A DNA stretch of 64,000 bases from Polytrichum commune (taxonomy: Eukaryota > Streptophyta > Polytrichopsida > Polytrichales > Polytrichaceae), in contig OX485807.1 in NCBI GenBank assembly GCA_950295325.1, forward strand, positions 41,076,440 to 41,140,439, given 5' to 3'. A program made the position numbers and the translations under genes. Below, piece by piece: positions 5,293 through 43,710 of this stretch; the first letter of the stretch is position 1; every line of letters begins with the position of its first letter. The notes under the pieces were generated by a model. That model did no database searches, was not told the origin of the DNA, and worked only from the letters and a program-made list of their open reading frames with translations.

Positions 5293-6011
5293 CAAAAGAA
5301 AGGATTGAAGTATGCACGGAAGTGAGTCATGCTATCAAAACCGGAACCCACACTCTAAAAGTTTGAACTCTTAATGGACAATATCGTCAACCTTGTGAAG
5401 ATTCTCAACCTATTTCAACCATTACCTTTAAATGATTATTGCATACTCGCAATTATAAAAATACTCTTTCACTTGCTTGACGTGGATTCTAAGAAGGTCC
5501 CAATTCCGTTTTAAGGACCTGATTAGCCCTTTGGATGAGCATCCCTTCTTACAAGGGATCTTTGAAGGCGAAATTGTTAAATTTTAATTGTCAATCCTTA
5601 GACTTTCCGTTGAAGTAAGTATGTCGATTGACTTTGATGCTACTTGGCTACATATATATTGGTTTGCATGTCCTTCATTCCTTTTGTGGTCCATCAATCA
5701 AAGGGTCTGCCTACTAAGGTAGCAGCAATTTTGGTGGTGGTTTGGTAGTTAAAGAAAGAAAATTGAAGATTTCATCCATGTTGTCTCCGCAAAAGACAAT
5801 TCAAAAAAATTGTGTAGTTTGGATGAAATCTTAATTTGGGATGAATAAGATCATGTGTTGGATGATAGTGTGTATTGTGTCTTCCTCAAATCAATAAATG
5901 TTGCTAGTGTGATTATCTTGAAAGTATTAAAAATAAGCAAATAAATCAATCAATAGCCATTTTCATATTGGATGAGGTGCTCCAATTGATGTTGAGGAGG
6001 GTGCACTCAAC

Positions 6012-6799
6012 CTGGGGGGGGGGGTCACTGGTAAAATTTGTAGAAACAACGTGCGATAAAAAATAAGGTCTAATATATTCATAGTAGATGAATTTTGCAA
6101 AAAATGTACATGTAATATATGGGGTTTTCAAATGATGAAATATGTTTACATGTAAAATACCATCACATATAATGGCCTCTTTTACTTAGTCAGTACATGT
6201 AAAATAGCGTGGAAACAATTATTAGGGGTAGCAAGTCTAGGGTGGGGTTTGTGCTAGTGGACAATTTTTTTTTTCATATTGAATAAGCTTGGATGGATGG
6301 CTTTGCAAGTTGGTTGGCTTGAACGTTACTAAACCAATGTATCCAATGTGGAGTTAATGTGATTTCATGTTTTGATGTAGTTCATGTGAGTTTAACATCG
6401 TGGCTGAACTTCACAATTCATGGTTTTAAGAAGAGAAATGTCTTTCATGAAAAAAAAATGTCACTTACAGAACCAAAAAAAAACGGGGTGTAAGAAACAA
6501 AATGCGGTGTATGAAACAAATGGACAACAATTGGGCTCTGAGAGGAAAAAAGAGGGGAATATTATAAAAAATAATTGGTTACTTGGGGTATAAGGAAAAA
6601 AATGATGTATAAGTAAAATAGGGTATTTTAAAATGATTTCCCAAATTTTTTTATAATAGGGTGTATTAGAATACATGCATGTACCTTTATTGTGACAAAT
6701 ACCATACTTTATAAACTTTTATGCAAGGTAAATAGCCCCCTAATAAATAGGTCTTGAGCACACGTGTATGCAAAATATAAGAGGGAGTGAACCCCCGAG
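6012..6799 (+). mobile_element. poly-G-ended DNA transposon, copy 2
   Basis: The left end CT followed by 11 G then TCACTGG, and the right end AGTGAACCCCCGAG, match the ends of the copy at 28812-30129. Subterminal words AACGTGCGATAAAA (left) and GTGTATGCAAAATATA (right) are shared. Flanking 8-mers are CACTCAAC and CATCCAAC (6 of 8 identical), a decayed 8-bp duplication. No coding sequence. The interior (GGGGTAGCAAGTCTAGGGT) is shared inverted with the copy at 43074-43702. Confidence 0.75.
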
Positions 6800-6807
6800 C
6801 ATCCAAC

Positions 6808-16737: not shown

Positions 16738-16827
16738 TATAGGTGTGTATGTATAATTGCGGTATTATGCCCGTGGTATTATACCACTGTATTATACAAC
16801 ACTCCCAAACCATATTTGTATAATACA

Positions 16828-16862
16828 GTTCTTGTTCTTGTTCTTGTTCTTGTTCTTGTCCA
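16828..16862 (+). repeat. TTCTTG hexanucleotide repeat in the hAT leader
   Basis: Five tandem copies of TTCTTG-type units just downstream of the left palindromic repeats and about 85 bases before the transposase ATG. A CT-rich leader is plausible. Useful as a fast-evolving marker between copies. Confidence 0.8.
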
Positions 16863-16946
16863 TAGTGGAGTCCGTAAGAGTCCTTAGGGGTGTTGTTCGC
16901 TTGCTACAAGTGTGAGATTTCATATTTGTCATAGACTCTACTCGAA

Positions 16947-19160
16947 ATGGGGAAGCCAAAAGATGCTATTTGGGAGAAGTTCGGAGCTTGTTACAGGCAG
17001 GGTGATGTCAGGTCAATGTACTGCAAGTGTTCCGCTTGCAATGAACCGGTGATTGCGGCAGTGGGTCGCATGCGCGATCACTATGTTGGTTGTAAGAAGC
17101 GGCCACGGTCAATAGGCTAGTTGGATGCGGGGTTCCAACCATCTCGAAAGAAGATGGTTCCATTAATTGTTAGTTCGTCGGTCCCTGCCAGCAACAGCCG
17201 GAGCAAGTCAGTGTCCCCGAATGATTCCGAGGACGATTTCTTCTCTGGCGGTCGGAAGCATTTTGATTTCTTGAAGAAGGATGAACAACAGAAGCTTGAT
17301 ATATTATTTGCATGTGCTATTCACCGCACGGCTATGCCATTTGCTGCCTTTGAGCATCCGGCATGGAAGCTGTTCTTTAAGTCGGTTCGTGGTTGCTTTC
17401 AACTTCCTTCTACAGAAGCTATTGGTGGTCAATTGATGCGGGATGAATACTTATATGTGATGAACGATGTTCTTCTCGCACTGAGCAAGATGTCGTTGAT
17501 CTGCATTACCTTGGACGGCGCCACGAATGTGCAGGGCAAGCAGGTGATCAACTTGATGGCTTGTTCACCAATTGCAATGTTCTTGGAACATTTTACAATG
17601 GAGTTGCGTAGAGAGAGTGCAGTAAATCTGTTGGAGAAGGTTTTGGACTGCAAGATGCGTCTGTTAGGAAATATTTGTAAGCATGCTCCTAGTTTCGTCT
17701 TATCGAGGAATATCGAAAGGATTGCAGATCTAGACAATGATGTTGAAGTCGTAGAACAGCAGGGTGAAGAAGGACTGCCCTGCACCAAGAATGAACACTT
17801 TGTTAATCCACCGATGTTCTGCTTCTGTAGCGATTCACCAAACGTCATGGTTAAGCTGCGCAAGGAATGTTTTAAGTCGAACGAGTTCATGTTTACGTAC
17901 AGCTGTGCACCCCATGCGATCCACAACCTTTGCATGGATCTGTGCAAACAGTTTCTAGGAGTGAATCGCGTTTTAAAACAAATCTTGTTTATGGTGAAGA
18001 CGTTAAAGTTGTCCCATCTTTTGTTAAAATTGTTTGACAAGCTGTGCATTGAGAAATATCGGAAGACGTACGTGCTCATCTTCTTTACGAAGACCCGATG
18101 GGGTACTGTCTACTACGCCGCTCAGCGTGCCAGCACGGTCAAATTGGCATGTGCATCGTTGCCAAGCGAAATTCTTAACGCTGATTATGACATTGATATA
18201 TGCGACGAACTGAAAGCTTTGGTTACAGATCAGTCTTATTGGAAGGGCGTATCTGCGATGGAGGCACTCTTCAAGACGATATGCTCATGTTTAACATATT
18301 TGGAGGGAGACGAAGCGACATTTTCTGCTGTGTATGCCTGCTTCGTGGCGATCAAGTTCCACATTAAGACGCTCAATTTCGTTGTCAAGGACGCATTGGA
18401 TTTGACTAAAAATGATATCGAACAGATTGTGACGATGATTCACCACCGCTTCTCGACAATTTATACGGAGGCCCATGCTCTAGCATTTGCTATTGATCCA
18501 TTATTCACCCCCATGCGCACTAGGATCGCTGCGAAGTTCAGCCAAGAGTTCTTGCAATTGGGGAAGTCTTCGATCAACCAACAGTCGAAGGCCGCACTTA
18601 GCCGTCTCGCGAATGGCAACGACGACCTCCGGCAAAAATTCTTTAGCGAGTTCGCCACGTTCATTGTGCGCCCGAAGGACAAAGATGACGATTTCAGCGA
18701 CATCACCTTCAAGCCGTTTGAATTGTGGACCTTATCTGACGATCATTACTATGGCGCCATCAAATGTCGTCTATCTGCATTGCACAAGAATCCGACAGGG
18801 GCAAGCGGGGGTGAGCGCAATCACAAGGCGGCCAAACGCGTTCATAATCGCTCACGAGCTCAGTTGGGCAAGCACAAGATCGAGACCAGGACCGCCATTC
18901 TGTTCAATTCGAAACAGCTCGATCGTCAAATTGCTACAACGAGGGATACAAAGTTTTGCAAGTGGCTGCAGCAGCTCTGCCCTGATAGCGGATTTGAAGC
19001 TGAACTTGAAGAGGACCCCGTCAACGAGGATGAGGATGGTGGTGGTGGTAGCATTGATGAATTTGATCGCGTTGACATAGCCGAGGACGTCGGTGGCATG
19101 CATGACAAGGATATCTTCGAGGCCGAGGAGGTGATGGACGAGAGTAACATCTACGAATGA
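16947..19160 (+). pseudogene. hAT transposase with BED finger; one in-frame UAG
   Basis: Cut-and-paste transposase of the hAT superfamily, acting on the ends of this element. The ATG at 16947 opens a BED-type finger: WEKFGACY, then CKCSAC and MRDHYVGC supply the Cys and His ligands. Codon 58 is TAG (17118-17120). The same frame then runs unbroken for 679 codons to TGA. TLDGATN with a following NLMA matches the first catalytic Asp block (DUF659-like). FCSDSPNVM and CAPHAIHNLCMDL fit the second Asp and the CxxH segment. AIDPLFTP and GASGGERNHKAAKRVHNRSR fit the C-terminal dimerisation region. Total 737 sense-plus-stop codons is normal for hAT. Without readthrough, only the 57-residue finger peptide or a protein started internally would be made. 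No intron is needed. The UAG could be a recent C-to-T or G-to-A nonsense change. Confidence 0.85.
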
Positions 19161-19727
19161 GGTGCATCTAATTGTTGTATAATACATTTGGTATTATATG
19201 GTATTATACAATATTATACAGTGCAGTCCGCGAAGATTCGAATTATACAGACCCATAATCGAGGCTACTCTCCCCTCTCGGGAATAGACACTTTAGTGAC
19301 TAGGGATAGGTGCTAGTAACCTTAGTGGTGTTGATTGGTCTTGTGTATATATATAGGTGTTGGCTTTTGATTGAGGACACCAAGTCATGGTTCCAAGGTT
19401 GGTTGGAACGTTGTCGGGTAGAGAGGGTTCCGCCTTGGGAAAGCACTGGGCTTTTGGCTGCAACTGGACTTGTTTACCAGACCGTCGAATCTTCTAGTCT
19501 TCAAGAGTCTTGGTCTTCAGTTTCTTCAAGTCTTCAAACTTTTTCCCGTCGACCTATCCTGTTGCGGCTCTATATGGGTCAAGGGTAAGGGTAGGGTGAT
19601 AAGATACCACAGGCCTCGGACGGGTAAAACGGGACGTCAGAACACGAGCTGGCGTCCGAAAGATTGGCTCCTAAACTTTCAAACCCACGGTAACCAGCAA
19701 TCGCGCCTCACCAATGGGAACGACAGA

Positions 19728-22203: not shown

Positions 22204-25009
22204 ACAACACAAAATATCATCACATATCATTATTGCACCATCATAAATCATGTGGTGTTTATTGGCATATTGTGCCTTTGAGGGGAGGGTTGATGGATGA
22301 AAATGTGGCTGTGTGTCTGGCTTGTTGTTGCAACGAATGTCGCAACGTGCGGACAGGTGTACGATAAAAACACAACGTAACGGCCGTGGTCGCGTTTGGC
22401 CCGTTCGCCTTCACCCAAACCGTCAGGCCCGTGCCCAAAGCCCGTAGACCTGCCCAATCGAGGTGCTTGCTGTGAGCTTCGCAAACCCTAAACCCCTTCT
22501 GCACAGGTGATCCACGACGTCTGTGCGCTCGAGTTTTGTCCCCGCCTTGTTATCGGTGTTCGCTTTGCTCAAGCATTCCTATTCTTGTGCCTAGACATAC
22601 AAGGGTTGGACCCACAAGGATTGGATGGCTGGCTTCCTGAGCTATGGGCGGGCTCTGTTGGGTGCAGTTGGACTGATAGCTTACCGCCCTAATAAAAAAG
22701 GGGGTAGGTAGAGGTGGTACTAAGGTGGACAGGAAAGCCACGAAAACCAACATTCCATCAAGCTTGGGAGGCGCATAACGTGCACATGGACCCTGGGATC
22801 GCGGAGGGGAAACTGCCCACAACAAATGCTCTCAGAATACAATTGAGGGACGCCAAAATGTGGCGCAGAGAAACCGAACTCTTGCAGCAGACGGGCCAGT
22901 CCAGAAGCAGATGTCCGTGCACGTTGTGCTTGTTTGGGAGGCCGCTACTCAGGACCACGCACGCGAAGCACCTTCGGGACTATGGAAGGCACCCCTTGCG
23001 ACGGCTGCAACCCCAAGTACAGTCTTACATTATCAGTCATTTCCAGATGAGTTCCAAACATGGACTGCTGAGTTGGAAGTATGCGAATGCCAATTTTTTT
23101 GAAAGTGGTGCAATCATGTTGGCAATTGGGATCGGGTGATAGCTGCATGCACCACATTCACAACTTTGTGCGACCTTTGTGGCAGGATCAGGAGCAGGAC
23201 AGCTCCGACGAGGAGTGGGAGACGGCAAATGCAAGGATGGACCCACTCGCACGGCTGCACTGGGGTGCTCGCATCGGCGATGGCGAAAGGGATGCTGCTC
23301 AGATGATCAGGGACGTCCTGCTCGCAGCAAATGTCGTCCACGAAGACGCGATGTCGGAGATGGGTGGGGCAGCATTGAACGAGGGCGATGGTGACAACCA
23401 CATATCAATGGCAGGCGAGGAATGGACTCCGATATCGTCAGAGGGACGCCATATACAGGACGGCGGCGAGCAGGGCGACATCAAAGGTGAGCCATTTGCC
23501 ATGTGGACTAGTCGGTGGACACTATGCTTGTTATGGGTTTCTTTTTCGAGGGCGTTGGGCAAGTTGAACCAAATTTTGTTTGAGTTTGAAGTGCACCTCC
23601 CTGATGTAGACCGGCACAGACATGTGGGGGGCCTGAACGATGTCCCCGGAGACGATGAAGTCTGCAGCCCAGTAGACCCAGAGACTGACAGCAACCTATC
23701 CAAATTCGAGGGCGACGACGCAGTGTCAATGGAGGAGGATGTAGACAGCACGTGGGACTACGGGAGCACGGGGAGCGGCAGCGAACCATCGCCACTTCAT
23801 GATGAGTCCACGACTCCTCTGTTCTGTGGTTCCCACCTCAGTAGACTAGACACCACTCTCTTGGTGATGTATGTTTGTCGTACGCACAAGGTATCAAATG
23901 CATGCATAAGCGAGTTGCTCCACATGTTCTCAAAGGTCATTTTGCCATCTCCAAACTCGTTGCCCTCGAGCGAGGGCATAGCCACAAACATATTGAGGAG
24001 ACTGGGGCTTAGGTATGATGCTATAGATGCTTGCAGAAATGGTTGTGTATTGTATAGGCATGAATATGAAGGAATGGAAACTTGTCCTTTTTGTCAAGCC
24101 AGTAGATATAAAAGGGTAGGGATGTCGAGAGTGCCGGTGAAGGTCCTCAGACATTTTCCCCTTGCTCCACGTCTTCGAAGAATGTTCTCCACCCCACAAT
24201 TGGCTTTGTTGATGACTTGGCATGGAGAAAATAGGTCGACTGATGGGTGGATGAGGGGTCCCTTCGATTCTCCACAATGGGAGCACATCAGACAACACCA
24301 CGCAGAGTTTGAGGCAGATAGCCGTAACATTCACCTGGGGATGTGCGCGGATGGCCTTAATCCACATTCCCAAAAAAGGTCTACGCACTCCTTGTGTCCT
24401 GTTATGTTGTTGAACTACAACATTCCCCCTTGGCTGACCATTAAGAATTTTTTTATAATACTTAGCCTCTTGATACTAGGCCCCGATGCGGTGACTGCCG
24501 ATCACATAGATGTTTTTTTGGGTCCATTGGTAGATGAGCTTAGAGAGTTGTGGGTGGAGGGCATAACATGCAACGACGCTGCACGTTGGCGGGGGGAGGT
24601 GAGATTCACACTCAAAGCAGTGTTGATGTGGTGTATCCATGATTTCCCTGCGTACGCCATGATGGCAGGCACGTCCAACAAGGGATACTGTGCGTGTCCA
24701 ATCTGCGGGCTTGGCACTCCATCAAGGTGCTCCGAACATCTATCAAAGGTGTTGTATGGGGGCAGTCACAGGCGGTGGTTGCCGCCCGAGCATCCATTCC
24801 GCCACGACGAGAACGACGAGAACGACGTGTTCACAAAACGGGAGCTGGAGGGCGCACCACCCCCAATGGACTCTGATGCACACATTCGGTGGGCCTTTCT
24901 ACGTGCCGAGTATGCACGATACGGGGGGCGCCTGGTAGCCGAGGGTGATCCCATGCTGTGCAGCGGTGTGAAAAGGGTGCCAACACTGTTTAGGCTCCCC
25001 TATTGGTAG

Positions 25010-25102
25010 GTACATTTGTGCCACACATGCAATATGGAACCTATGTTTGTGTGTGATCCCTTGGAAGGTATTGACTCCAGGCTGGTTGTATTATGATCAC
25101 AG
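25010..25102 (+). other. 93-bp intron of the Tnp2 gene
   Basis: Donor AG before GTACAT and acceptor TGATCACAG. Splicing keeps the frame only if the three bases just upstream (TAG) are read as a codon. The alternative donor four bases upstream would shift the frame. Confidence 0.75.
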
Positions 25103-26931
25103 GACATGCCCGTGAGGCACGTGCTGGATGTGATGCATATTGAGAAAAATATTGCAGAGTGCGTATTGAAGTTCCTGTTTGGGGAGAAGGACACTTTGGA
25201 ATCAAGGCGAGACTTGGAGCAAATGGGGGTTAGGCGCGACCTGTGGCTGAGACCACGCCCAAATAGACCAACATTTCATAAACCGCCAGCGCCGTATGTA
25301 TTCTCCGAGGCAGAGAAGAAGATTTTCTTGGATGAGGTGAGTGCAATCCGCACACCTACCGGATATGGAAGCTCTCTGGGGAAACATCTAAAGAAAACAA
25401 AATTTCTTGGTTTGAAATCGCACGATTACCACTGCCTAGTCCAGCAAATCATACCTGTTGTTTGCCGCACATTGTTGCAACCGCTGCAATGCACAACATT
25501 GATTCGATTGGGCAAGTGCTTCAACCGAATTTGTGCGAGGGTGATAGAGAAGGCAGACATTGCTCCACTTTGGCTGTATGTTGTGGAGACAATGTGTTAC
25601 TTGGAGGTGTGCTTCCCACCAGCGTTCTCTGACATAATGGAGCACACACTTGTGCACTTGGTCGACGAGATCGAGTTGTGTGGCCCTGTAGGAGGCAGGT
25701 GGATGTATCCTTGTGAAGGATACCTGGGCACATTGAAATCCTTTGTGAGAAACAAAACGCACCCTGAGGCGTCAATGGCCAATGGGTATGTTGCGGAAGA
25801 GGCAGTAGGCTTCTGCACGGAGTACCTGAATTTGCAGGCACACACGAAGCGACACATATGGGAATCAAACAAGGAAGAATCAATGAGGGCATCCGTGGTG
25901 GAGGGATGTGGTCGGGTGTGCAATCTGTCGGAGGCCGAGATGCTTCGAGCACACACATATGTTATCATGAACCACGGAGAAACAGTTGACATGAGACGGT
26001 AAGAAATTCCACAAAGCATGTGTGCATGGCCCTGGTTTGGTTGCCTTGTATAAGTGCAACATGCAGGAACCCTCACTGGTCGCAGTCACAGATCACGAAG
26101 AGACATGCTGGAACCGGGATGGCGTTTAAGAGGTAGAGGCAGTGGCTCGCTCCAGCACGCTACAATATTGGTAGTGCGTCAACGTGCTGGAGGATGGAAT
26201 GTACGAGCAGGAGGTAGAGGCAGCCTCCAACAACTGGCTCATCGTGATAGTACGATGTGTCTGTTGTATGACAGTAACCACGAATAGCTACTAGAATCGG
26301 TTTTGTGCATCGTGTTGTCATGGCTTTGTGCTGTAGTTGTTGGCGGATATGGATTTAGACGTGGGTGCCGGAGACGACCAGTGCGCAATGAAGTTTTAAC
26401 TTTGTGTGGCACATGCTGGTGGATAGGGAATACGAAGTAGAGGCAGGAGAGAACGCCTGCATAGCGCCCTTCTATATGTGGCTGCGGAGGAGGGTGGAAG
26501 TGCCTCACAACATTGGAGGTCCCGTTGGAGAGGAGTTGCTGGCGCTGTCATCCCCACCATGCAGGAGGGCGTGCTCATTCAAGAGCATGACTTCTTTTGG
26601 CTCGCACTACAGAGTGGACTTGGAAGAGGAAGGGGTATCGCATGTGACTTTCGACTCAGGGGTGGCCGAGCTTGACATTAACGACGTCCGTGGAGGCAAC
26701 CCAATGAACGGTACTGCTGTAGATTTGGTGAGAGTCGGCATACTGAAGGACATCCTGGTGTTGAGGTATGGGCACCTCAACATTGTGCTAATGGTTGTGT
26801 CGTGGGTGGCAAAAGACACACCACAACGTCAAAGGTTGGAACGGGATGCCCACGGGTTTTGGCTTGCAAACATGGTTGCACGGCCGCGCGACACATCATC
26901 ACCATATATCCTCCCTGCTTTGGCATCGCAG

Positions 26932-28489: not shown

Positions 28490-28811
28490 AGGGGAGCTAC
28501 TGGTTGTATACTTAGTGAAGCTGCTGGTCGCAGTTGGAGGCTATTGAATTCTATGCAGTGGGAGCTATTGGTCTTTATACTTAGTGAAGCTGGTTGCAGT
28601 CGAAGCTGCTGGTCTGCAGTGGGAGCTACTCGCCTTTATACTTAGTGAAGCTGGTTGCAGTCGAAGCTGCTGGGCTGCAGTGGGAGCTACTGGTTGTATA
28701 CTTAGTGAAGCTGCTGGGCTGCAGTGGGAGCTACTGGGTGTATACTTAGTGAAGCTGCTGGTTGCAGCTGGGGGCTACTGAATTCTATACGGTGGGAGCT
28801 ACTGGTTTTAT
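28490..28811 (+). repeat. CACTA internal repeat array, left block
   Basis: Five units of about 45-70 bases sharing TATACTTAGTGAAGCTG and GCAGTGGGAGCTACTGG. The block is interrupted at GGTTTTAT by the poly-G element and continues at 30130, so it was once a single array of about 11 units. It lies about 1-3 kb from the right terminus and may be subterminal, possibly a transposase-binding region. Confidence 0.85.
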
Positions 28812-30129
28812 CTCGGGGGGGGGGGGGGGGCACTGGCGAAAAACGTAGGAACTACGTGCGATAAAATATAGGGTCTTGTATAAAAATTTGGCGTAAAATT
28901 TGTAAATTATTAGATGTAGTATAGGGTGCTTTGGGATTGTGAAACATGATTATATGTAATATAGCATTTGACAAAACATGATTAAATTACCTAAGTGGTA
29001 CATATAAAATAGCATGGAGAAAAAACGATAGTTTCAAAAATTAAATACTTTACCACCAAAATATGGCATGTTCTATATAGGAAGGGTTCAAAAGATAAGG
29101 GTGAAGGTTGGTACTAAGTGGGGCAATTGTTGGCAACCCATTGACTTGATGAAACGTGCAGTCCAGAACAGAAATAGAGAAACGCTCTTCCCAACTGCTA
29201 TGGCTTACCTCCATTGGTTCAAAAAACAGCCGGGTCTCAACAAATATAAGTACGTCGAGAGTGACTGTGTGTGGCTTGATGTGGATGCTATTATCTCAAC
29301 TGTGTCTCTACTGTATGAATCAACAGCAAAATCTACATATTAGATGAGGTAGATGCAAACTCATTGAGTGAGTTCATTTCAAATAAAAAATAAAACCTGC
29401 TAAATTTGTATTATCTTACACATGTGGAGATATAATTTGGAAAAAGGGCTCAATGATCATTAGTATACCTTGAAATCTGTAGTAGTCATTTCAGTTCGAG
29501 TACCCTCATATCTCCCACATGTGTAAATGGTAGCCTAGCTAGTTTAGGTGGATTTTGCTTGCATGACATGGGATTTTCCTCCAATGTGTAGGATTGGAAG
29601 ATCAAGGCATCAATTGTAGGGATTTTGCAAACCTTGTAAATGTGACTTTGAGACACATGTGGCTGGCCTGTTCCCTAAGACCTCAAGGTTTCTAACTGTG
29701 TTATCCAACACAACTTTTATTCGTTGGCTCGTGTTGCTTAATGACATGTAATTGCAATCTTTTGTTGTTATTGTTTAGTGTTTTGCTTTGCCCGGACTTC
29801 AGTGTGATCCTGAACCCTAAACCCTAGTAAATGTTTGTTTCTCTTACTATGTACATGTGCTTCTAACGAGAATTCTACTGTATCATACACTTTAAGGAAT
29901 GGGGGCAATCAGAGGAAAAAGAATACATATAAGCAATATAGGGTACCATAAAATCAACCATCCAAGAATTTATAATTACCAATAGGGTGTAAATAATCAC
30001 AACAATTTACCATTATTTCAAAAATTAGCATCCCTTATAATCCTTTCTCATAGGTAAATAACCCCCATTTTAATAGGTCATTATCGCAGGTGTATGCAAA
30101 ATATACAAGGGAGTGCCCCCCCCCCCGAG
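28812..30129 (+). mobile_element. poly-G-ended DNA transposon, copy 1, nested in the CACTA array
   Basis: Ends are CTC followed by 16 G then CACT on the left, and AGTG followed by 11 C then GAG on the right. Both sides carry the identical 8-mer GGTTTTAT (28804-28811, 30130-30137). The flanking array reads through cleanly if the element and one 8-mer are removed. It is the longest of three copies and the only one with a coding-like segment (29068-29343). An 8-bp duplication is compatible with hAT, P or KDZ-type transposons, but the G-tract termini fit none that I recognise. Confidence 0.88.
29068..29343 (+). CDS. 91-residue open frame in the poly-G element, unknown protein
   Basis: The ATG at 29068 opens a stop-free frame to TAG at 29341-29343. 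The composition is protein-like and rich in charged and aromatic residues: GRVQKIRVKVGTKWGNCW, PIDLMKR, AYLHWFKKQPG and VWLDVDAIISTVSLLY. It looks like one exon of a larger protein rather than chance sequence, since the surrounding DNA is AT-rich and stop-dense. I do not recognise the family. It could be a fragment of the element's own transposition protein or a captured host exon. The shorter copies (788 and 629 bases) lack it. Confidence 0.45.
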   Translation: MFYIGRVQKIRVKVGTKWGNCWQPIDLMKRAVQNRNRETLFPTAMAYLHWFKKQPGLNKYKYVESDCVWLDVDAIISTVSLLYESTAKSTY

Positions 30130-30437
30130 GGTTTTATACTTAGTGAAGTTGTTGGGCTGCAGTGGGAGATACTGGCCTTTATACTTAGTGAAGCTGGTTG
30201 CAGTCAAAGCTGCTGGGCTGCAGTGGGAGCTACTGGGTGTATACTTAGTGAAGCTGCTGGTTTTAGCTGGGGGCTACTGAATTCTATACGGTGGGAGCTA
30301 CTGGTTGTATACTTAGTGAAGCTGTTGGGCTGCAGTGGGAGCGACTGGTTTTATACTTAGTGAAGCTGCTGGTCGCAGCTGGGGGCTACTGAATTCTATA
30401 CGGTGGGAGCTATTGGTTTTATACTTAGTGAAGTCGC
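30130..30437 (+). repeat. CACTA internal repeat array, right block
   Basis: Six units with the same core TATACTTAGTGAAGCTG and GCAGTGGGAGCTACTGG as the left block. The first starts with the duplicated GGTTTTAT of the inserted element. Confidence 0.85.
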
Positions 30438-31493
30438 TGGGTTTACATTTAGATATACGGGGTTGGTCACTTAGTAAAGGGGTAGGGAGATGGGACTACT
30501 AGTGAAGAGTATTTTTTAATACTTGTACTCGTATCATGGAATAAATTGATGTGTAAAAGTTGATGGGGAGTGAAATGGATTTTTTATGAATTTGGTAAGA
30601 GGTAGGATGTAAGCATGAATGTGATACCCATACCCTCACCCAGACTAGGACGCTTAAGGGTGGGTGGTTTGGCCTCATAGTGTCGAGGGGATGTGCTTTG
30701 GAAAACCACATCCCATGCAGCGCTTTGCAGCGAGATGGCGCGCTGTAGCAACAACAAGGCGGTGCAACAAGAGCGTAGAGGAGGCTCCCGACAAGAGAAA
30801 CTGCGAACTCATCCATATGTGACCCCCAGTAGCATAGGGTAGGGTAGGAGGGGTGGACGGCATGTAGTTCGGAAGAAACCACCGTGCACACATGCCTGGA
30901 GCTTGTAAACAATATCATTTTATATATAAATCATCCAGAAATTGGACTTTGCATAAGTTGCAGTGCACCCAACATCGCATACATACGTTGTTGTATCAGT
31001 GCATTCAATCAATTCCGTGGAAGTCCGCAATGTTGTTTCCACCCTAATTAAACCACCCAATATGTTGTGCAAGCTGAAATACGCCTATATATACAACGGG
31101 GGCATGATAGATTTCAATACAATAGGAGTAGTGGTTTGGGAATACAGAACATTTCTTATATACGCAAAAAGACCTCCCTCGGCTATGTATTCAAACACAC
31201 ACGTAATCAGCTTTTAATGCACCCACTTATTATTGAATGACCTGGCCTCGAACACCGTGCCATAATTTAATATCGTGCCGCTTCCGCTTTATATATATAT
31301 AGCATATATATATATATATATATATACGCATGTTGCACGTCTATGGGGGGTGGACAACACTTTGACAGCTTGGAACATAGAATGTGGCCATTTTTATACT
31401 GGACCGGTTTCCACCCAATTCATGCTAGGAAAATGCGCCCCTGTCCAAATATCCAACAGGCGCCCTGTTAGTGTCAGGCCCCTCTGTCGCTGG
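30438..31493. other. right subterminal region of the CACTA element
   Basis: No supportable gene. Includes a TA run at about 31290-31326. A minus-strand open stretch (30499-30918) shows no motif. Confidence 0.4.
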
Positions 31494-42150: not shown

Positions 42151-43073
42151 CGACATAGCATGTCATGCTTCAAATATTTTAATATCCTATTTCATTAGTC
42201 CCTGCATTTGTATTTATACTTTTTACTTCGTAGTGACATTGTCAACTTGTAGTTCCTCCAGGTCTCATATGCTTGTAGTGGTTTATTTGGCAACTAAGTT
42301 TCGTAGCCTAGCATGTTATCACTAAGAGGAAGATAGGATGCATTTTGGACTTCGACTTGGTTGTGAGGTGGATATGGAAATTGGCTCTGCAAAATGCTTC
42401 GATGGCTTAGTACTAGGATCCGCTCCATGAAAGCCTTTGTGACTTTTGTGTTCTTATCTACTACACCACTTGTGGTACTTAGTGTCATGCACACTATTGG
42501 CGAACAACCTAAACTAGATCCATGCCAAGATATTAGTAAGCGCATTTGTCAATTGCCAAGTGTCATGAGGTGACACTAATTGTGAAGTGTTGATCAATAG
42601 TGAAACCTAGGATACACCTCAAGAGAGGGTAAGGGACATTATTACATATATCTGGGGGGGGGGGGGTGGTGCGAATTTCATACCACATACAAACTAACAT
42701 GAGTGTAGAAAGGAGTATTATTTGCAACATTGGCGTACATAGTATACATAAAGGAGAGGTACTATAAATTTTAAAAGGCACTTAAGTATTGTGGAGTAAA
42801 GGTAGATGTACAATAGGGGCCCTATGGCTTAGAGAAGGTTTTGACAATAGATGTCCTAGTTTCATTTAATTACCTTAATTCATCCAAATGACGCGTGTTT
42901 CAGTGTTAGATTATGAATTATATCCTATGAATGAAAAATGTTCAATGACTTTCTCATTGGAAAGTGAAGGTGGACTATATTTGTAATAAAGGCATATTTA
43001 TTCCATGATTACTTTTTGTGTGTGTGTCGTGGAGGCATTTATCAGATTAGGTTACGAAGCTTAGTATAGAAAC

Positions 43074-43702
43074 CTTGGGGGAGGTCACTTCCTCTTATAT
43101 TAATGCATACACGTGGGCTCATGACCTATTTATCGGGGGGCTATTTACCTTGTAGAAAATATTACAAGGTATGGTATTTTTCAAAATAAAGGTAAATGCT
43201 TATATTTTAATACACATAATCAATAATTATAATTTCTTGGTGGAATCATTTAAAAAATACCCTATTTTACTTATAGTACCAAAGAAAATTGGAAAGAAGA
43301 TTGCAATTCAAACAACGCGCTGAAATTTTCCCTCCCGGCACGTAGGTAGTGAACATTAACTCCACATTGGATACATTGGTTCAGTATCATTCAAGCCAGC
43401 CATCCTGCGAAGTCATCCATCTGAGGTTTTTCAACAAAATATTACCTCTTTTCATTCACTAGCACAAACCCTACCCTAGACCCGCTACCCCTAGTAATTG
43501 TTTCCACGCTATTTTACCTAAATTGACTAGATAAAAGAGGTTGTTATATGTGATGGTATTTTACATGTAAACATGTTTCATTATTTTGAAACCCCTTATA
43601 TTATATGTATGTTTTTTTGCAAAATTTACCTACAATGAATATATTAGACCCTATTTTTTAATCGCACATTGTTTCTACGATTTTTGCGAGTGACCCCCTT
43701 AG
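43074..43702 (-). mobile_element. poly-G-ended DNA transposon, copy 3
   Basis: Identical 8-mers ATAGAAAC flank it (43066-43073, 43703-43710). Ends are CTTGGGGG and CCCCCTTAG. Its reverse complement aligns along its length with copy 2, sharing CTCTTATATT-ATGCATACACGTG near one end and AGTGACCCCC at the other. No coding frame. Short G tracts (5) suggest an older or contracted copy. Confidence 0.85.
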
Positions 43703-43710
43703 ATAGAAAC

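Follow-up and report, generated by a model that had tools for sequence, protein, structure and literature searches.

Short elements with G-rich ends are probably internal-deletion derivatives of a P-element-like DNA transposon encoding an approximately 1,500-residue transposase

Three insertions with G-rich ends in a 64-kb stretch of DNA, referred to here as the window (G000:C5:41076440-41140439), are in all likelihood non-autonomous internal-deletion derivatives of a P-element-like cut-and-paste DNA transposon. The host assembly, G000, comprises 408 Mb in 64 contigs, nearly all of it in seven large ones (42–78 Mb). The 1.3-kb element at 28812..30129 (+) is flanked by the target-site duplication GGTTTTAT at 28804..28811 and 30130..30137, with the left and right copies identical at 8/8 positions. 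Its left end (28812..28834, +) consists of CTC, G16, and CACT, followed by a subterminal box, ACGTGCGA (28854..28861, +), 23 bp inward of the CACT start. Its right end, read inward (30112..30129, −), consists of CTC, G11, and CACT, and the corresponding box, ACCTGCGA (30084..30091, −), lies 24 bp inward of the CACT start. The other two insertions belong to more diverged subfamilies. One is a 788-bp non-autonomous element at 6012..6799 (+), whose flanking 8-mers, CACTCAAC at 6004..6011 and CATCCAAC at 6800..6807, agree at 6/8 positions. The other is a 629-bp non-autonomous element of a 0.6-kb subfamily at 43074..43702 (−), with its left end at 43702 and the duplication ATAGAAAC at 43066..43073 and 43703..43710 (8/8). 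An earlier reading of the DNA, made from its letters, had set the boundaries of the three insertions at 6012–6799, 28812–30129, and 43074–43702, which are exact to the base, and its account of the flanking 8-mers, identical for two copies and 6/8 for the third, was borne out. The termini described there, CTC or CTT plus a run of G, hold in general, except that the 6012 left end is CTGGGG and the end at 43702 is CTAAGGGGG. The words GGGGG(0-6)CACT produce 17 overlapping matches in the window, all at the six element ends, against 2.1 expected from shuffles.

The pre-insertion sequence is visible within a tandem array, as had been proposed, and the insertion in the array is the copy at 28812. The joined flanks of 28812–30129 form a 28-mer that recurs with one mismatch at five places in the surrounding array, whereas elsewhere on the + strand of the window the closest ungapped match differs from it at 11 positions. 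Since the joined flanks restore the array unit, the 28812 copy is the one inside the array. The array, at window 28554–30441, has periods near 44, 61, and 112 bp. Traces of other transposons also occur in the window. Pieces of a CACTA transposase gene occupy 23072–26002, with matches to Transposase_21 (7.3e-61) and DUF4218 (1.5e-31); this gene and the contig layout of G000 suggest a land plant as the probable host. A 679-residue frame at 17121–19160 gives a weak match to DUF659 (E 0.0021, below the cut-off), and possible hAT termini, TATAGGTGTGTATG, with the duplication ATCGAGGC, are found around 16738–19257; these differ from the G-rich element termini.

A search of G000 with the element ends, which the sequence-only reading had recommended, confirmed that the insertions belong to a genuine family of DNA transposons marked by G-rich ends and 8-bp duplications. 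Exact matches number 142 for the left end of the 1.3-kb type, CTC-G(n)-CACTGGCGAAAAACGTAGG, with none for its reversed control, and 163 for the right end; the more diverged T-type ends, with at most one mismatch, number 142 on the right and 96 on the left. As a DNA query, the 1.3-kb element gave 41 listed matches, with 40 of 1,216 candidates scored; among those listed, 40 are near full length at 95–100% identity, and the remaining one is 75% identical over 227 bp. Pairing of the ends listed, in lists of 100, yields element lengths of about 0.61–0.62, 0.67, 0.80–0.87, 1.25–1.32, and 1.57 kb. The 8-bp duplications are present in all 21 full 1.3-kb copies read (20 from elsewhere in the genome and the window copy), 18 exactly and three with one mismatch; L008, L009, L010, and L015, which have interrupted or variant ends, were read by eye, and a second left end in L019, which has no right end in the stretch, was left out of the count. 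Adding eleven more elements, several read by eye, brings the number read at both ends to 32, with 24 exact duplications, seven with one mismatch, and one with two; this set excludes the long copy e described below, whose left candidate is unmatched. The two left ends in L019 (G000:C1:57320980-57324500) are 1.8 kb apart and share 15 identical flanking bases, so they probably reflect a tandem duplication of the insertion together with its flank. At G000:C6:30.0-30.7 Mb, the minus strand carries four T-type left ends, about 0.2 Mb apart and identical over the matched letters, which may represent a segmental repeat.

Longer copies with a transposase, for which the earlier reading had also advised a search, occur elsewhere in G000, and the parent type of the 1.3-kb element is among them. 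The search for the parent used the sequence just inside the 1.3-kb coding piece and excluded the usual upstream base. This inner junction has 129 matches in G000, and a single deviant, the parent, was found among the 100 listed; the inner junction of the 0.8-kb type has 43 matches, none continuing differently. The parent type spans 8,880 bp (C4:55634833-55643712), carries a G17 tract, and is flanked on both sides by exact copies of TCCTTGCA. Its left end is 97.2% identical to window 28815–29061 over 248 columns, and its right end is 95.6% identical to window 29063–30122 over 1,061 columns. Because the parent aligns to both parts of the 1.3-kb element, the latter corresponds to the parent minus one internal deletion, with the junction at 29061..29063 (+), where the left part aligns to 29061 and the right part from 29063. 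The 1.3-kb type retains the 3' interior of the parent including the transposase C-terminus, and the 3' remnant of the transposase gene, with a stop at its end, occupies 29063..29343 (+). The 0.8-kb type retains part of the 5' interior, at 78.4% identity over 167 columns. The transposase gene of the parent is broken: three stops interrupt the 2,067 nt read, and approximately 960 nt of the gene (L070:2610-3571) show no similarity to the intact protein. The best other transposase matches are only 58–75% identical, and thus no intact copy of the parent subfamily, the one behind the 97–98% identical 1.3-kb copies, was seen in G000.

Pairing of ends had produced no copy with a transposase, and several other candidates for long copies were rejected. 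The 19.2-kb interval C3:8817818-8837007, bounded by the duplication AAACCGAG, is a 1.1-kb copy hosting an unrelated nested element of 18.2 kb. C1:74048305-74059259 consists of two separate 0.6-kb copies, L063 of a 260-bp copy and a lone right end, and C1:12603504-12606397 (2.9 kb, duplication 7/8) is without transposase similarity. The copy in L063 (about L063:4200-4550) is a miniature of approximately 260 bp with the ends CTCAGGGGGTTCACT and CTCGGGGGGTTCACT and the duplication CATTTAGT (8/8). The nested 18.2-kb element (L024, L064, L065, L023) has the inverted repeat AACACTATATTCGTTATTTGGAGACTTT and, by eye, the 4-bp duplication TAGG; its frames show an NLI-type phosphatase domain (1.9e-13) and DUF7869 (E 8.8e-40), the latter perhaps the transposase of a large DNA transposon.

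As a protein query against G000, the transposase gave 69 matches, with 65 of 334 candidates scored. Among the listed matches, nine frames of 1,493–1,549 residues are free of stops within the match at about 60% identity, and three of the nine, read from stop to stop, measure 1,497, 1,502, and 1,518 residues. The coding piece of the window element is continuous with the parent transposase gene and matches the C-terminal region of the intact proteins. Ten long copies were compared on the right side: the parent, E1 (C6:6798300-6806614), E2, E3, a, b (C3:22477311-22483661), c, d (C4:41298156-41306578), e, and h. Their right ends show A[C/G]TG, a C tract, and GAG or GGG in nine of the ten, and that of E2 is degenerate. 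This pattern, which was written after the ends had been seen, is present in 8/9 non-parent right flanks, compared with 0 to 7 of 200 shuffles per flank. Both ends together with duplications are present in four of the ten copies, namely the parent (8/8), b (8/8), d (8/8, by eye), and E1 (7/8). No left end could be located for E2, E3, a, c, or h within the flanking DNA examined, and copy e has a left candidate without a matching duplication. The nine right ends and the four copies with both ends indicate that G-rich ends accompany the transposase across about 60% protein identity. Copy a is flanked by an inverted pair at L091:2050-2580 and L092:1400-1950, 85.6% identical over 521 columns. Its 8-mer, CATTAATG, was considered as a duplication or a rival element end and rejected as part of a pair of another repeat, because it is a palindrome and the 521-bp pairing continues through it.

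The transposase is not assigned by sequence searches. No Pfam family matches at E ≤ 1 (five transposases and seven pieces), no NCBIfam family matches three transposases, and a PDB sequence search returned no P chain at E ≤ 10. The remark in the sequence-only reading that no known family has such ends is upheld insofar as the libraries searched contain no family with this transposase. A profile search of the genome with the P model PF21787 was silent in G000 and in the controls alike and is uninformative. No relatives were found in viral contigs, no viral structure matched at E ≤ 0.001, and a PHROGs search gave nothing relevant. The structure of the core, 761 residues, was predicted from a 26-row alignment with middling confidence (pLDDT 60, pTM 0.60). 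In a Foldseek search of the PDB, Drosophila P element transposase entries matched the predicted core best (E 8.5e-8 and 1.1e-7), followed by RAG1 (0.011). VIA-align superimposed the predicted core on the P element transposase 6p5a with a Z score of 20.0 over 368 residues (rmsd 4.0, 14% identity), and this alignment of the predicted fold covers the chain range 155–562, including the insertion domain. The runners-up, ISCth4 (8.6), Transib (8.0), RAG1 (7.8), and Hermes (6.5), are possibly distant kin of the modelled core, all far below P in Z score. The N-terminal model is poor (pLDDT 53), and its best chains reach Z ≤ 6.7.

The motifs AEDET, GHASDGD, DxxHNGKK, and GSDSCE occur in fixed spacing and correspond to the P signature D-D-D(2)H-E, from which we infer the putative triad residues. 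The P superfamily signature combines a DDE triad with a [C/D](2)H motif that follows the second D (PMC8230255). In rows holding both motifs, the distances are 119 from D1 to D2 (10/10), 47 from D2 to D(2)H (9/9), and 195 from D(2)H to E (8/8); in Drosophila P, the residue numbers give 73, 36, and 192 (PMC8230255). Over the 26 rows, which include pieces of one locus and are counted where a letter stands at the position, conservation is 20/21 for D1, 20/20 for D2, 19/20 for the D and 20/20 for the H of D(2)H, and 17/18 for E. By one account, the P element transposase stands alone in its class in using GTP as a cofactor (PMC7776569). Taking the GTP-contacting residues from that source and setting their counterparts by eye-fitted spacing (shifts +7, −3, and +3), the putative counterparts of K400, V401, D444, and D528 are kept in 16/19, 15/19, 18/19, and 17/18, that of K385 in only 10/19, and that of N447 is not conserved. 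The conserved positions may serve as a lead.

Other features are likewise shared with the P elements. Drosophila P also has 8-bp duplications, inverted subterminal repeats, and numerous copies with internal deletions, which are typical of P elements (PMC7776569). Besides their terminal repeats, P elements have subterminal repeats and distinct internal binding sites (PMC7776569, PMC10983969). Zebrafish Pdre2 and THAP9 similarly have a short terminal repeat with a separate subterminal inverted repeat and 8-bp duplications (PMC10983969), as well as deleted copies (PMC7776569). The differences are also clear. Drosophila P has a 31-bp terminal repeat and is 2.9 kb long, whereas the present elements have CTC-G8-CACT ends, measure 6–9 kb, and encode a transposase of about 1,500 residues. 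In Pdre2 and THAP9, the terminal repeat is CATACCTGTCAAC, beginning with CA, and spacers of about 400 bp separate the terminal and subterminal repeats, compared with 23–25 bp from CACT to the box here. A THAP domain, N-terminal in the animal members of the P superfamily, is present in those proteins, and no Pfam THAP match was found in the present transposases; the host here is probably a plant, and PMC7776569 states that THAP domains are not found in plants.

Descent from the P superfamily is accordingly unproven: the predicted fold, the signature, and the duplications favor it, and the undetected sequence similarity and the THAP domain not found count against it. The strongest competing explanation is that the elements form a separate, undescribed superfamily that has only a general DDE core in common with P, so that "P-like" would be a loose fold label. 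The missing sequence match to P families, the different D1–D2 spacing, the THAP domain not found, and the different terminal bases would all fit such a superfamily. Against these stand a Z score far above those of ISCth4, Transib, RAG1, and Hermes, a D(2)H motif whose distance to E nearly equals that in P (PMC8230255), and the combination of 8-bp duplications and subterminal inverted repeats known from P (PMC7776569, PMC10983969). A separate superfamily appears the less probable reading, and the data suggest filing the elements as a new P-like lineage. Among the limits of the P-like reading are the middling fold model, the lack of a sequence match, the presence of both ends in only four of ten long copies, and the broken parent. 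More speculatively, and with somewhat less than an even chance, the elements might constitute a superfamily-level sister lineage of P that has been very successful in a plant genome, characterized by G-rich ends, a THAP-less transposase of about 1,500 residues, perhaps GTP chemistry, and tolerance of a 7–22-base G tract between the cut site and the binding box.

The ends of the copies with uninterrupted frames define a compact terminal block. Read inward, they begin with CTC or CCC and eight G-rich bases (GGGGGGGG, GGGGGGAG, GGGGGGTT, or GGGGGGGT), with CACT or CAGT at offset 11 in 8/10 ends; the exceptions have offsets of 12 (d, right) and 18 (e, right). The ten ends are not all independent, because the right ends of a, d, and E3 are nearly identical. 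A box of the form A[CGT][CGA]TGCG, resembling ACGTGCG, lies 23–25 bp inward of the CACT start in 48/56 ends, and in the remaining eight the box is altered by a base or two, by eye. The ACGTGCG box stands in opposite orientation at the two ends; in the 1.3-kb copies its distance is 23 bp at the left end and 24 bp at the right.

The G tract itself varies. Among the 100 listed of the 142 left ends, it is 7–22 long including interrupting bases, with 8 the commonest length (30/100). The variable homopolymer had been regarded as an intrinsic property of the recognized end, and its length could be functional, either through a G-quadruplex or as a variable spacer used by the transposase. In keeping with this idea, 67 of the 89 pure tracts in this set are not 8 long, the parent has its G17 tract, and one six-copy clade is entirely long, which leaves some inheritance of tract length possible. 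The length distributions point the other way. With tracts classed by eye as interrupted or pure, a length of exactly 8 is found in 8/11 interrupted and 22/89 pure tracts (Fisher p 0.0025). A tree of 34 copies, of which 14 were less than half filled, requires 8 changes between short and long tracts, compared with a shuffled mean of 10.1 and 45 to 56 of 500 shuffles as low. Such a lack of significant clustering is what slippage in a pure homopolymer predicts, and homopolymer lengths in the assembly may carry sequencing error. Together with the 11-nt block at 8/10 uninterrupted-frame ends, these observations do not support a variable-length homopolymer as intrinsic to the recognized end and make a function of tract length improbable; the longer pure-G tracts look like products of slippage.

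Membership of a hAT family, with a hAT transposase moving the elements, is very unlikely. hAT transposons also generate 8-bp duplications and have an RNase H-like core with an insertion, and 150 matches to the hAT dimerization domain were scored among 1,060 candidates in G000. However, four of these 150 lie within 12 kb of any of 329 known ends, against 2.9 expected (the end list is incomplete), and the parent element carries the gene, now broken, of the approximately 1,500-residue type of transposase instead. None of the five transposases and seven pieces compared with the hAT C-terminal dimerization domain (PF05699) matched it at E ≤ 1, and Hermes falls far below P in the structural comparison. 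We take the ends here not to be of hAT type. KDZ elements (Zisupton, Dileera) share the 8-bp duplications (PMC12730594), and the KDZ transposase (PF18758) had no match at E ≤ 1 in the same five transposases and seven pieces; a KDZ profile search of G000 was empty, as were its controls, and is uninformative. The sequence-only reading had named a hAT or KDZ family as the assignment that would overturn it, and neither domain is present in the transposase. CACTA elements, which have 3-bp duplications and termini starting with CACTA or CACTG (PMC10741241), were rejected on account of the 8-bp duplications, the position of CACT at least 11 nt inside the end, and the lack of a Transposase_21 match. 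Mutator (MULE) was also rejected, since none of the same five transposases and seven pieces matched a MULE Pfam model at E ≤ 1. That the 1.3-kb coding piece is a captured host gene fragment, an idea to which its lack of any Pfam match might lend itself, is refuted by the parent element, in which it runs on within the transposase gene.

These findings are consistent with a mechanism in which the P-like transposase, encoded by the longer genomic copies, would recognize both ends of an element. Recognition, as we infer it, would involve the terminal block (CTC, about eight G-rich bases, and CACT) and the ACGTGCG box 23–25 bp inward. The RNase H-like DDE core with its insertion domain, as seen in the predicted fold, would excise the element and insert it at target cuts with an 8-bp stagger, as the duplications imply. 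The short copies would be mobilized in trans, in line with their shared ends and near-identity, and pure G tracts would later change in length through replication slippage, as the length distributions suggest. By analogy with Drosophila P, a GTP cofactor is possible.

Few DNA transposons of animals have been studied as thoroughly as P elements, and P-type jumping genes would be unexpected in a plant host. A review of plant transposons recognizes seven inverted-repeat superfamilies in plants, with P not among them (PMC10741241), and none of the titles listed in our literature search, which did not extend to Repbase or most subscription papers, concerns a plant transposon of P type. A P-like lineage that is abundant and has uninterrupted genes in a probable plant would widen the range of P-type elements. 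Its very distant transposases would help to test which residues are needed for the GTP step, and its clear end signature would provide annotators with a means of recognizing elements that Pfam misses.
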